Assembly: GCA_016203225.1 (NCBI GenBank)
Contig: JACQNC010000012.1
Coordinates: 1 to 64,000 of the forward strand
Origin: Candidatus Woesearchaeota archaeon
Lineage (GTDB): Archaea > Nanobdellota > Nanobdellia > Woesearchaeales > ARS49
Direction of reading: 5' to 3'
DNA length: 64,000 bases
Below the pieces are notes generated by a model, which did no database searches, was not told the DNA's origin, and saw only the letters and a program-made list of their open reading frames with translations. Shown here piece by piece: positions 18,852-28,989 of the stretch; within the stretch, counting starts at the first letter, position 1; every line of letters begins with the position of its first letter. The translations under genes were made by a program, and so were the position numbers.

Positions 18852-20014
18852 TGGGGAGATTATTCCTCGTGCTGCAGCAGTTCGACCCGGATGCTGGATC
18901 ATACTCGGCGGTTTTCAGGAGGCTCGCTGAGCATGCCACAAAACAGGGATACTCGGTAACAATCACGTGCGATCGGAAAACCGGACAGCCAGCGGAGGAA
19001 CTGACTGCCTACGCCACAATACGGAGATTCCCCTCCATCAGGGCACCTGTCTTTAGCATGATCATCGCCGCGTTGCGGCGCGCACATAACACTCGCGCAT
19101 ACTTTAAGACCGTAACGCTCACGTCTGACGACATCATCATCGCCAACGGCGAAGCGGCTTTGGGCCTTGCGGGGTTGCCGTATGTTTTGCGCGCGGGCGA
19201 CCAACCTGCCAATACGTTTCTCGAGAATATGCAGCGCGGAAAGGTGCGATTCATCTCGCGTATCGCTCGCCGCATTCACATCCTGTTCCAGAGCATCATT
19301 GAGAAGCGGGTGCTACGCAAAGCGAACGGGCTGATTTTCGCGTCATCGGAAACCCGCGACTTATTCGTCCAAACATATGCTCTTCGGACAACACCTTGGT
19401 TCGTCCCCCGTTCAGGCATAGAACCGCGACCTATCCGGGCGACACCTAAGAAGATGTCCTTGCTATTCATCGCGGATGCTCATGATAGAATCAGGAAAGG
19501 AGCGCAGGATCTTGAGCAAGCTCTTCCAACGCTCTTCGATGAGTTCAAAGAGCTCATGCTTATTCACGTAGGACAACCATTCACATGGGATGTCCCTGCC
19601 TGGTGCCAGAACAGGATTCGGAGCGTTGGCAGGATCCCGTGGGACGCGATCCATGAGTACTATGAGCAAGCGTCGATTGTCGTCAGTTGCTCATTAAGCG
19701 AGGGATTCCCGAACGTCATTCTCGAAGCGATGGCGGCGGGCAAGCCTATCGTCACGAGCGACATCAACGGGATCAATGAGTATCTCGAAGATGGCATCGA
19801 AGGCCTCGTCTATCACAAAGGCGCAATAGATGAATTGATTGAGAAGGTGCGATTCCTGCTGAAGAATCCTGGAAGAGCACGAAGTGTCGGGCGCGCTGCC
19901 AAAACGCGCATACGTGCATTGGCGTATCCTGTATATGAACGTGCCGTGCTGGAATTTGCGCGCCAGGTCCGCCAAGGACGTGCACAGGATTTCAATCTCC
20001 TGAAACGTTCATAA
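18848..20014 (+). CDS. Family 4 glycosyltransferase (paralogue of the preceding gene)
   Basis: SLSEGFPNVILEAMAAGKPIVTSDINGINEYL; 4-nt overlap with 17700..18851. Confidence 0.88.
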   Translation: MMGRLFLVLQQFDPDAGSYSAVFRRLAEHATKQGYSVTITCDRKTGQPAEELTAYATIRRFPSIRAPVFSMIIAALRRAHNTRAYFKTVTLTSDDIIIANGEAALGLAGLPYVLRAGDQPANTFLENMQRGKVRFISRIARRIHILFQSIIEKRVLRKANGLIFASSETRDLFVQTYALRTTPWFVPRSGIEPRPIRATPKKMSLLFIADAHDRIRKGAQDLEQALPTLFDEFKELMLIHVGQPFTWDVPAWCQNRIRSVGRIPWDAIHEYYEQASIVVSCSLSEGFPNVILEAMAAGKPIVTSDINGINEYLEDGIEGLVYHKGAIDELIEKVRFLLKNPGRARSVGRAAKTRIRALAYPVYERAVLEFARQVRQGRAQDFNLLKRS

Positions 20015-20968
20015 GAAATGATCCTTCAGCGCTCTATCCAGCGTAGCGAGGACGTTGTCCCAGTGTTCGACGCTCACGGCCGCGTTGAACATCCCTCCTG
20101 AAGCGAACTTCTGCCCTCCGCCGCCGAAACGCTTGCCGAGCTTCGCGAGGTCGATGTCTACGCCGTCGCGGCGCCGGAACGCGATCTTGCCAGACTTGTA
20201 CAGCACGACCGCGACGTCAACCGCGACATGCCTGTCGAGGATGTACTGGCACGCGTCTGCCGTGCTCAGGATCGGTGCAGAGAGCGAGAATCCCAACTTG
20301 TATGTCAGGTATTCCTTGATCGTAAGACGTTTCATCAGGTCCTCGAACGCCTTGGCTTTCTTACCGAGATAGTCCGTGCGGGCCTGCTCGAAGACGTGGT
20401 CCCATACCATGCCCTTGGAGAGCGCCTCTATGATCGCTTTCGGGTCGTATCCTGATGCGATCAGGTCCGCGAGTTTCGTCGCGCGCTCGTCCTGGCGCAG
20501 CCAGAACTTGATGTCTGCGGCGAGCTTGGCGAGGACGCGCCCCACGGGGTCTCCGGGAAGGAACCGGAAAGCCGCGAGTTCGGTGCTTGATAGCTTGTCT
20601 TTAGGGAAGCTGCCTGGCGCGGTCTCGGCATAGTCGACGCGTTTGACGTGCTGTGAAAGGAGCGCGAGCGTCTCGGGCGTCTGTGGCTGGCTGAAGCTCC
20701 AGTACGCGATCGTGCAGCGTCCCGATACCCGATTCAGGAACGCGGCAAGATCGGGTATTGCATCAGGGGGGAAATCGATTACGAAGAGCCCGACATTGAG
20801 CTGGTCGGCCAACTCTTGCAGATCCCGCTCCTTTGACTCCGTGCGCAGTATGCCTCCGATCCTGACTGTCATGCCTTTGAGCTTGAGCGCGCGGTAGACG
20901 CAGGCTGCCGAGCATAATCCGTCGAGTGTGTCCGAACAGAACAGCACGGAAAGCATGGTCTTTTTCAC
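20009..20968 (-). CDS. DHH/DHHA1-family phosphoesterase-like protein with degraded DHH motif
   Basis: N-terminal CSDTLDGLCSAA and VIDFPPD; DHHA1 GGGGQKFASGG; expected DHH replaced by IAYWSFSQP. Confidence 0.75.
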   Translation of the reverse strand: MKKTMLSVLFCSDTLDGLCSAACVYRALKLKGMTVRIGGILRTESKERDLQELADQLNVGLFVIDFPPDAIPDLAAFLNRVSGRCTIAYWSFSQPQTPETLALLSQHVKRVDYAETAPGSFPKDKLSSTELAAFRFLPGDPVGRVLAKLAADIKFWLRQDERATKLADLIASGYDPKAIIEALSKGMVWDHVFEQARTDYLGKKAKAFEDLMKRLTIKEYLTYKLGFSLSAPILSTADACQYILDRHVAVDVAVVLYKSGKIAFRRRDGVDIDLAKLGKRFGGGGQKFASGGMFNAAVSVEHWDNVLATLDRALKDHFL

Positions 20969-21030
20969 GCGTTTATCGCATATAAACGTTTGCGCAAAAG
21001 CTTATATAGCGCTTTTCCGACGGCGGATGC

Positions 21031-21390
21031 ATGACTGACCTGGTCGCATGCCTCAGCACGGGCAAGGGCACATGGGGGCCGTTGATGAAGGTCGTGGAGA
21101 GCCCCTCGTGGGAGAACGTGTTCCTCGTGGCGCCGACCTTCTTCGCCCAGAAGTTCCAGACGATGCGGAAGAATGTCCAGGTGATCCCTATCGATGACAC
21201 CAAGGAATTGCCTGAACTAATCAAGGACGTACAAGCAGGGCTGTCCGGTAAGCTTTTCGGCGACGTCGCCGTGAACTTCTCTTCAGGCTCGGGCAAGGAA
21301 CACATGGCCATACTTGCTGCGTTGCTCAAGTGCGGCTGCGGCATCCGCCTCGTGGCGCACACGGACGCGACTGGATTGCAGGAGCTTTAG
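21031..21390 (+). CDS. Small CARF-like (Rossmannoid) protein
   Basis: VAVNFSSGSGKEHMAILAALLKCGCGIRLV resembles the CARF N-x-(S/T)-G-G-(T/S)-K/R-x-M signature; own TATA-like element. Confidence 0.6.
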   Translation: MTDLVACLSTGKGTWGPLMKVVESPSWENVFLVAPTFFAQKFQTMRKNVQVIPIDDTKELPELIKDVQAGLSGKLFGDVAVNFSSGSGKEHMAILAALLKCGCGIRLVAHTDATGLQEL

Positions 21391-21983
21391 GTCTTCTTCG
21401 ATCTGTACACTCGATATCCTGACTGCCGCGCGATGGTCTCGACGTTGCCATAGACTTCTTCCATTTTCTGTTCGAACATCCTGCCGCCGACGTTGTGGCG
21501 CGCGACGAGCCAGAACTCGCCGTCCGTGTCCAATCGCGCCTTGCCATGCTCTATCATCTGGTTGCATAGTTCTCTGCCGGCGGTCTGGGGCGGGTTGAGC
21601 AGGATTGCGTCGAAGAACTCGTCCTTGACCGGCTCGTAGCTGTCGCCGGAGCGCACGTCGACTTCTACGCCGTTCAATGCAGCATTCTTCTTTGTCAACG
21701 TCACTGCACGTTTGTTCACATCAGTCAATACGACTGTGCATTGCGAACACGTCTTCTTTATCGCGATGCCCGCAGGGCCGTAACCGCAGCCTAAATCGAG
21801 GATGCGCATCCCGGGCGTCACGATGAATTCGTCGATCAGCAGCTGCGTCCCTTTGTCGATGCGCGTCTTTGAGAATGTGCCCGCCCCGGTCTCGAACACG
21901 AAATCGGCCCCCCGCAGATGTGCATGGATCAGCGATCTGGTGAACGCGGTCTTGTGTTTGCGCGCGTAATAGTGCTCGCTCAT
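21387..21983 (-). CDS. Class I SAM methyltransferase, RsmC-like
   Basis: ILDLGCGYGPAGIAIKK, DAILLNPPQTAGRE (NPP motif). Confidence 0.88.
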   Translation of the reverse strand: MSEHYYARKHKTAFTRSLIHAHLRGADFVFETGAGTFSKTRIDKGTQLLIDEFIVTPGMRILDLGCGYGPAGIAIKKTCSQCTVVLTDVNKRAVTLTKKNAALNGVEVDVRSGDSYEPVKDEFFDAILLNPPQTAGRELCNQMIEHGKARLDTDGEFWLVARHNVGGRMFEQKMEEVYGNVETIARQSGYRVYRSKKT

Positions 21984-22672
21984 GCTGGTTTGGGGTCGAG
22001 GCTGGTGATGATTCCGTAGAACGTGTACACCATGCGGTCGACCGCGCGCACGAGCTCCTCGTCGTGGCCGCTGAGGATTATGCAGTCGTTCTTGAGGCGG
22101 ATGTTGGTCGTCAGGTTGACGTTGTTGAGCACGATGACCGAGACGTTCGGGGTGTCGCAATCGACGATCGGTCGCGTGGCGCAGGGTTCGGTCTCGTTCA
22201 CTAGACAGGCCGGGATGGTTTTCACGCCGATGGCGCGCACGAGGTTGAGGGATAGCTCGGCGGCGGCCAGCGCGACGTAAGCCTGGCTCTCGGGGCGCGG
22301 GTCGAACGTCACGTAGATGGTGTCGCGCTCGAATGTCGGGTTGATCCTGCCCGCGACAGAGATGTTGAGCGTCTGCAATGGATTATAATGCATGCTCAGG
22401 ATGTATTGTGTATCCTCGTTCTGCCAAAGGCTCCACCACAGGTCCTCTTTGTATTCGAACTCGAAGTTGTTGTAGGTGACGATCTCGCCGCGCGGCGGCT
22501 CGGGGGTGTAGAACGCGCGGATGGCGAACACGCCGATGACGAGCGCGACTATGATGCCGATCGCCCAGAGCAGGATCGTCGAGTTCGGCTCCTGTTCGGG
22601 GGGGACGTCAGGGATTGGCGCCTGCTTGGGTTCCCGCATCACGTCCTTGATCGTGTGATCCATCACGTCCAT
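21980..22672 (-). CDS. Uncharacterised single-TM protein, paralogue of next upstream gene
   Basis: N-terminal TM helix (ILLWAIGIIVALVIGVFAI); shared motifs with 22672..23256. Confidence 0.75.
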   Translation of the reverse strand: MDVMDHTIKDVMREPKQAPIPDVPPEQEPNSTILLWAIGIIVALVIGVFAIRAFYTPEPPRGEIVTYNNFEFEYKEDLWWSLWQNEDTQYILSMHYNPLQTLNISVAGRINPTFERDTIYVTFDPRPESQAYVALAAAELSLNLVRAIGVKTIPACLVNETEPCATRPIVDCDTPNVSVIVLNNVNLTTNIRLKNDCIILSGHDEELVRAVDRMVYTFYGIITSLDPKPA

Positions 22673-23256
22673 CAGTCCATCACTCCGAGCGCGATGAACA
22701 GAATCTTGTCCTGGATGCGGAGCACGTCCTCTCCGGCCGCGGCGGCTGCGGTGATGCAGGAATCCTTTATCGTGATGCTTGTTTCATCACCCTCGCCGAG
22801 GAGCAGCACCGGCTCGGTCGCGGTCGCGTTGACGCAGGAGAGCAGCGGAAGATTGTATGAATCATCTTCGGTGACCGCGGGTTGGACGTACGTGTTCCGG
22901 GAGCCGAGCACCTCCGCGAGATAGTACTGGGCTGCAGCCATGCTCTGGCTGTGGTTCGATGCTGGATCGTACGTGACGACCAGATATGGTCCTCTGACCA
23001 GCGCCGCGACGCCAGGGTCGGCCGGGATGCTCTCGACCTGGCTTGGGAAGAACGTGAAGCCGTAACGCACGCCGTCTATGGCCGCGAACACGCCGCGGGG
23101 CGTGCTGGTGAACTTTATGCCGTTGTAGCGCTGCGTTTTTCCGTCACCGGTCGAGCCTACGTAGAAGCCCGCGACGCTGAGCACCATCAGGATGACGATT
23201 ATCCAGCTCAGGATGCGTTTGCGCTTCGTTTGGCGCTGGTCTTCGTGATCGTGCAT
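22672..23256 (-). CDS. Uncharacterised single-TM protein, paralogue of the neighbour
   Basis: N-terminal TM (ILSWIIVILMVLSVAGFYV); YNGIKF..., VTYDP..., IKDSCI... shared with neighbour. Confidence 0.75.
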   Translation of the reverse strand: MHDHEDQRQTKRKRILSWIIVILMVLSVAGFYVGSTGDGKTQRYNGIKFTSTPRGVFAAIDGVRYGFTFFPSQVESIPADPGVAALVRGPYLVVTYDPASNHSQSMAAAQYYLAEVLGSRNTYVQPAVTEDDSYNLPLLSCVNATATEPVLLLGEGDETSITIKDSCITAAAAAGEDVLRIQDKILFIALGVMD

Positions 23257-28817: not shown

Positions 28818-28875
28818 ACCTTAAGCGCGACGTTTCCACTCATGAAAATCGAGGGCTTCCTACTTAAGGTTCAAA
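28813..28875. repeat. Perfect 13-bp inverted repeat (37-nt loop)
   Basis: tttgaaccttaag (28813-28825) and cttaaggttcaaa (28863-28875). Confidence 0.85.
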
Positions 28876-28989
28876 GCCTCCGGAGGGAGTTGCACCCTCG
28901 ACCTGCGGTTATTTCGGACAGCTGCGTTCGAGATCTCGGGCGCAGCCCGTTGTACGAAACCGCCGCTCTGGCTACTGAGCTACGGAGGC
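28876..28989 (-). tRNA. tRNA-Thr(CGT) with 42-nt intron at canonical 37/38 position (intron about 28911-28952)
   Basis: Acceptor GCCTCCG/CGGAGGC, D stem GCTC/GAGC, anticodon stem GCGGT/ACCGC, T stem GAGGG/CCCTC, U73; bulge-helix-bulge can be drawn at exon-intron junctions. Confidence 0.85.

Follow-up and report, generated by a model that had tools for sequence, protein, structure and literature searches.

A single-domain protein with a predicted CARF fold in a class-wide family of Woesearchaeota and related Nanoarchaeota, outside CRISPR systems

Most of what is known of CARF domains concerns their role in receiving the cyclic oligoadenylates that Cas10 makes, and a small gene in a Woesearchaeal genome raises the question of what such a domain might do on its own. 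The window analysed here, by which we mean the whole stretch of 64,000 nucleotides (positions 1 to 64,000 of the forward strand of contig JACQNC010000012.1, assembly GCA_016203225.1, Candidatus Woesearchaeota archaeon), contains this gene and a putative promoter element:

21031..21390, plus strand: CDS of a stand-alone protein with a predicted CARF fold (ATG at 21031, TAG at 21390, 119 aa)
21002..21009, plus strand: TTATATAG, a nearly palindromic TATA-box-like sequence found by direct reading, with its centre about 26 nt upstream of the ATG

The open reading frame and the two protein segments quoted in an earlier sequence-only reading of this DNA were found exactly where that reading had placed them. 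The frame is a genuine gene and not a chance ORF, since it has homologues in 90 of 144 related genomes (best non-self E-value 2.7e-50), a codon-position bias and a low dN/dS; the window protein and that of a same-genus relative are 65% identical, the window gene and the same-genus copy differ at 32 first, 19 second and 72 third codon positions, and dN/dS is about 0.06–0.13 for close pairs at other loci. An ORF on the minus strand (20973–21362) that overlaps the CARF gene is a shadow ORF. From the position of the TATA-like element, the CARF transcript is likely leaderless.

The family is widespread. An even sample of the phylum contains it in 189 of 279 genomes (about two thirds), almost always as a single copy, and a scan of genome contigs gave 292 loci that encode it, the best 80 of which are mostly titled Woesearchaeota, Nanoarchaeota or unnamed archaeal MAGs. 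Three loci (L044, L046 and L055) are titled Aminicenantes bacterium, Methanosarcinales archaeon and bacterium, respectively, yet have a gene and neighbourhood of the Woesearchaeal type, and these are probably mistitled or contaminated MAGs. Where the proteins were read they are about 116–123 aa long, longer open frames reflecting slack in the N-terminal start site; no effector fusion was found among the members read, and searches of viral contigs, phage records and plasmids yielded no member. Distances among the CARF proteins co-vary with those of their neighbours (Mantel r 0.25–0.77, all p ≤ 0.012), as expected under mainly vertical inheritance. This is a class-wide DPANN family (Woesearchaeota and related Nanoarchaeota) that is mainly vertically inherited, housekeeping-like and outside CRISPR systems.

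The genomic surroundings are of the same character. Downstream of the CARF gene the window contains:

21387..21983, minus strand: MTS small-domain methyltransferase (Pfam MTS, E = 3.5e-41), convergent to the CARF gene and overlapping its stop codon by 4 nt
21980–23256, minus strand: two adjacent membrane-anchored proteins of no known family (c1)
28875–28989, minus strand: Rfam tRNA match (51.4 bits, 115 nt) not called by ARAGORN, probably an intron-containing tRNA gene

The MTS methyltransferase lies downstream in 24 of 81 regions (the window and the best 80 loci), and throughout the order the c1 proteins are often encoded in tandem, convergent to the CARF gene. Other window genes encode an M50-type protein, two glycosyltransferases and a PadR regulator, as well as what we take, from reading the sequences, to be SecD/SecF, PyrG and an ABC transporter. 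Elsewhere in the order, genes presumed to encode SecDF, PyrG and a rhomboid-like protein lie upstream of the CARF gene, and methyltransferase and membrane-anchored protein genes lie downstream; an alternative context in the order has Orc1/Cdc6 29–78 bp downstream on the same strand (11 loci) together with presumptive L1/L10/L12-like genes, most of the names assumed in these two contexts having been assigned by eye. Family f105, whose genomes are reduced, has the CARF gene beside genes that we similarly assume to be L1/L10/L12, TYW1-like, M50, eIF5A-like and FtsZ-like. More widely, the CARF gene sits among genes of translation, replication and secretion, and a CRISPR or defence setting is absent.

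The gene divergent from the CARF gene in the window was the basis of a proposal that the two form a nucleotide-signalling pair:

20009..20968, minus strand: DHH/DHHA1-like gene (319 aa) with a degenerate motif (Pfam DHHA1, E = 9.7e-4, below cut-off)

The divergent arrangement is as the sequence-only reading described it, with 62 bp between the two genes; the DHHA1 match is sub-threshold, and conservation of the pair failed to appear. Among the best 80 of the 292 loci, only the same-genus locus (L031, equal in length and match to contig G001:C92 of the relatives set) shares the DHH adjacency. The DHH-like gene is present in 19 of 96 relatives, mainly in the window's own family, and the majority of CARF-bearing genomes do not have it. 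Its window product carries AYWSFSQ in place of DHH and GGGGQ in place of GGGH, changes that suggest it is probably catalytically impaired. Some DHH-like relatives retain CHH or SHH variants. The idea of a cyclic-dinucleotide phosphodiesterase partner is unsupported, since the pairing is found in one genus only, the gene is mostly missing from the genomes that have the CARF gene, and the DHH motif is lost.

The window protein alone gives no significant match in domain libraries or among PDB sequences; its top PDB chain, a fungal lectin matched over 21 residues, was not taken as a real hit. The CARF assignment, first made by eye, is borne out by predicted structure and by profile matches of individual members, and the family very probably belongs to the CARF superfamily. 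An AlphaFold2 model built with 81 family sequences (mean pLDDT 90.7, pTM 0.86) has the element order b1-a1-b2-a2-b3-a3-b4-a4-b5-b6 with the hairpin last, which is the full CARF order, and it contains both the Rossmann-like six-strand core and the strand 5–6 hairpin by which CARF domains are recognized. When this model was compared with the PDB by Foldseek, all 50 best matches were CARF proteins, with Sso2081 first (E = 2.1e-4) and Can2, Csm6, Cam1, Card1, Csa3, Cdn1 and Sis0455 also among them; the TM-scores are moderate (0.48–0.72 by query). A viral fold library gave no match to the CARF protein at E ≤ 0.001.

Profile comparisons point the same way. When each member was scanned with the 5027 PADLOC models, the top five models by member count were all CARF models (CARF1 with 19 members, CARF_m11 18, CARF1-HEPN 9, CARF8-TM 9 and CARF3-TM 6; best CARF E-value 7.1e-6), and the most frequent Pfam match was HFX_2341_N (11 of 81 members), with Csa3_N in 3 and Csm6_CARF in 2, each such single match of a member being weak. 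The family profile found no CARF chain among PDB sequences. Aligned by hhalign with Woesearchaeal HFX_2341-type CARF-wHTH proteins, the family gave an E-value of 1e-4 (2.6e-5 with a broader alignment) at a profile–profile probability of 58–75%; the best of 32 non-CARF control alignments gave 0.0025, and the methyltransferase and other controls gave no match. Of the two halves of the CARF-wHTH set taken singly, one gave no match (0.14) and the other (0.0022) did not improve on the best control, only the joint set standing out; we therefore regard the link by sequence as moderate and give more weight to the fold. The CARF-wHTH proteins are themselves CARF proteins, as they match solved Can2 (E = 1.5e-10), Card1 and Csa3 (E-values up to 9e-7).

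Two motifs at the predicted ligand pocket account for much of the conservation:

21055..21075, plus strand: motif 1, codons of S9-T10-G11-K12-G13-T14-W15, where strand 1 ends and the next loop runs
21274..21309, plus strand: motif 2, codons of N82-F-S-S85-G86-S-G88-K89-E90-H91-M92-A93, where strand 4 ends and helix 4 starts

CARF domains characteristically end strand 1 with a serine or threonine (PMC4012209), and this family does so too: among 100 aligned sequences, position 9 is S in 88 and T in 5, position 10 is T in 67 and S in 25, and the rest of motif 1 is G11 in 95, K12 in 84, G13 in 90, T14 in 77 (S in 21) and W15 in 94. S85, G86, G88, H91 and A93 are invariant in all 100, and E90 (98), N82 (93) and K89 (92) belong with R106, W27 and W15 to the residues that are 92–99% conserved. 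The signature [DN]x[ST]xxx[RK] is often, not universally, seen after strand 4 of CARF domains (PMC4012209); here it is displaced by one, as N82-xx-S85-G-x-G-K89, with invariant Gly88 at the classic [RK] position. The most conserved residues lie mainly in the loops after strands 1 and 4, which are the CARF ligand sites, and the 21 loop positions include 10 of the 20 that are most conserved (p ~2e-4, the loops having been chosen from knowledge of CARF). In Sso2081, Thr10, Ser11 and Gly104 hold phosphate, and two further residues, Arg105 and Lys106, are important for activity (PMC10018336); the putative equivalents of these residues in the family are suggested by position along the modelled fold.

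These features invite comparison with several known groups. Like the Crn1 ring nucleases Sso2081 and Sis0455, which have the best Foldseek E-values, its members are stand-alone CARF proteins with no fused effector, and they share the S/T that closes strand 1, as well as Gly and Lys after strand 4 (PMC10018336). Unlike Crn1, they fall about 60 aa short of the solved chains in length, have the Lys shifted by one and an extra conserved E-H, and lack a type III CRISPR context; the 119-aa model has neither the C-terminal helical lid insert that characterizes Crn1 nor a counterpart of the lid tyrosine of Sso2081. The closest relatives by sequence profile are the CARF-wHTH proteins of the HFX_2341 type, which occur in the same archaea, and Csa3, but their C-terminal wHTH is missing from every family member read. 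Csx15, Csx16 and Csx20, which are ring nucleases or candidates for such, are likewise small single-domain CARF-like proteins, but those are catalogued near type III CRISPR loci (PMC12409355) and no library match links the families. Finally, RtcR has a CARF domain outside CRISPR that is not activated by oligoadenylates, binds tRNA fragments and is under partner-protein control (PMC9650030), but it is fused to AAA+ and HTH domains, and RtcR proteins mostly lack the basic residue after strand 4 (PMC4012209) that the window family keeps in 92%. The family is set apart from CRISPR sensors and effectors, from Crn1 as defined by lid and context, and from CARF-wHTH regulators.

That the protein stands alone, with no effector domain and no CRISPR locus, had been noted from the window and holds for the family as well. 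No closely spaced direct repeats of the CRISPR type were found in the window, among the relatives the cut-off is passed by Cas10 in 1 of 139 and by Cas1 in 4 of 134, and the window's own genome (96.5% complete) has no detectable Cas10, Cas1 or DAC-type c-di-AMP cyclase; a DAC domain was found in 10 of 96 relatives. With Cas10 and Cas1 nearly missing from the relatives and missing from the window's genome, the usual supply of cyclic oligoadenylate (cOA) is absent, and the fused or linked effector combined with a genomic Cas10 that marks type III CRISPR sensors and effectors is not found. Matches to the CD-NTase (SMODS) model in half of the relatives were rejected as cyclases, as they are mostly single-copy ORFs of ~400–460 aa and the model also matches in M. 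jannaschii and S. acidocaldarius; these ORFs are more likely CCA-adding enzymes. HFX_2341-type CARF-wHTH regulators are present in 39 of 116 relatives (loci L111–L135), nearly all without Cas10, and give these archaea a second group of CARF proteins outside CRISPR, with a distribution that is independent of, and not complementary to, that of the stand-alone CARF protein (Fisher p 0.54).

What role fits such a protein? Two copies would form the usual CARF dimer, in which the strand-1 motif (S9-T10-G-K-G-T/S-W15) and the strand-4 motif (N82 to H91) would line a pocket that binds the phosphate of a small nucleotide ligand. That ligand would come from normal RNA metabolism, independently of Cas10, and the CARF protein may consume it in the manner of Crn1, its activity being that of a metal-independent phosphodiesterase on a cyclic or 2',3'-cyclic-phosphate-ended oligoribonucleotide. 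A housekeeping CARF protein of this kind, most likely consuming its ligand as Crn1 does but outside CRISPR, is the reading that we tentatively prefer, with slightly less than an even chance of being correct. Consumption is favoured because there is no output domain and the pocket includes an invariant His and a near-invariant Glu, although these two residues could also serve binding. The minimal second-messenger sensor of the sequence-only reading is possible; given the lack of an output domain, the ligand-consuming role is at least as likely.

Close behind it ranks a reading in which the CARF protein is a sensor that acts in trans, its ligand-bound dimer docking on a partner such as c8 to give, in effect, a split CARF-wHTH regulator; we think this possible, though clearly short of probable. 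Two copies of c8 illustrate this candidate partner:

L093:9460–9909, minus strand: c8 gene of the A5 family
G000:C7:152094–152528: c8 copy in the window's genome

The c8 gene is the most widely recurring divergent neighbour across families, lying 56–450 bp from the CARF gene in eight families of the class. Its product of ~151 aa belongs to no Pfam family and carries a strongly conserved LRRYEKP...GLLQPGDSRD motif, and helices make up most of its model, which has a small beta-wing and a long C-terminal helix. The best fold matches of this model are wHTH regulators, so c8 is weakly predicted to be wHTH-like, but every one of these matches is above E 0.01. Fused CARF-wHTH proteins (Csa3 and the HFX_2341 type) are known and are present in the same archaea, and RtcR with RtcA/RtcB is a known case of in-trans CARF control (PMC9650030). 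Against this reading, c8 is near-universal, with 235 of 279 phylum-sample genomes compared to 189 of 279 for CARF, and thus can do without it; c8 is the usual divergent neighbour outside the window's order, but inside that order the two genes are usually apart, and adjacency is weak evidence.

It is improbable that the protein is a Rossmann-like nucleotide or metabolite binder that resembles CARF without being homologous to it. The shifted signature, the range of TM-scores and the profile–profile probability would be compatible with such a protein, but the best 50 PDB matches include no other fold, and the profile libraries pick CARF independently while the controls remain without a match. More doubtful still is an orphaned place in type III CRISPR signalling, in which the protein would be a ring nuclease of the Crn1 kind or a sensor for cOA that the cell or a host archaeon makes. 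Its fold and single-domain size, like those of Crn1 and the small Csx15/16/20 proteins, agree with this, and these archaea are thought to be episymbionts living on host cells, so a host-made (Cas10) signal is conceivable. The rarity of Cas10 in the relatives and its absence from the window's genome argue against it, as do the lack of CRISPR or defence surroundings and of copies on mobile elements, and the start of strand 1 at model residue 2, which leaves no space for a signal peptide. A second-messenger pair with the divergent DHH protein, signalling by c-di-AMP or nanoRNA, is very improbable in spite of the nearly palindromic TATA-like sequence within the 62 bp between the genes, and is contradicted by the confinement of the arrangement to one genus, the loss of the DHH motif and the scarcity of DAC cyclases (none in the window's genome).

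In Pfam, NCBIfam and PADLOC, the most that any model gives for the family is a weak match, and none of the papers searched joins CARF with Woesearchaeota. The kind of protein is already known from the small single-domain CARF-like Csx15/16/20 proteins (PMC12409355); a core-style CARF family that spans a class of archaea nearly devoid of Cas10 is undescribed in the libraries and papers searched, with the 2020 CARF census (Makarova 2020) outside the search.

We consider that there is an even chance that this DPANN class keeps a housekeeping CARF protein that senses or destroys an oligoribonucleotide-type ligand, independently of Cas10 and outside antiviral defence. If so, the CARF-based nucleotide pathway would be one of RNA-end control or of a Cas10-independent messenger. 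The CARF family is found in about two thirds of the phylum sample and the near relatives of the window are almost all without Cas10 and Cas1, and retention of a single-domain CARF protein under these conditions suggests use in another form of nucleotide messaging or in basic RNA processing; a protein of only 119 residues would allow a direct test of such non-Cas10 use of a CARF domain.
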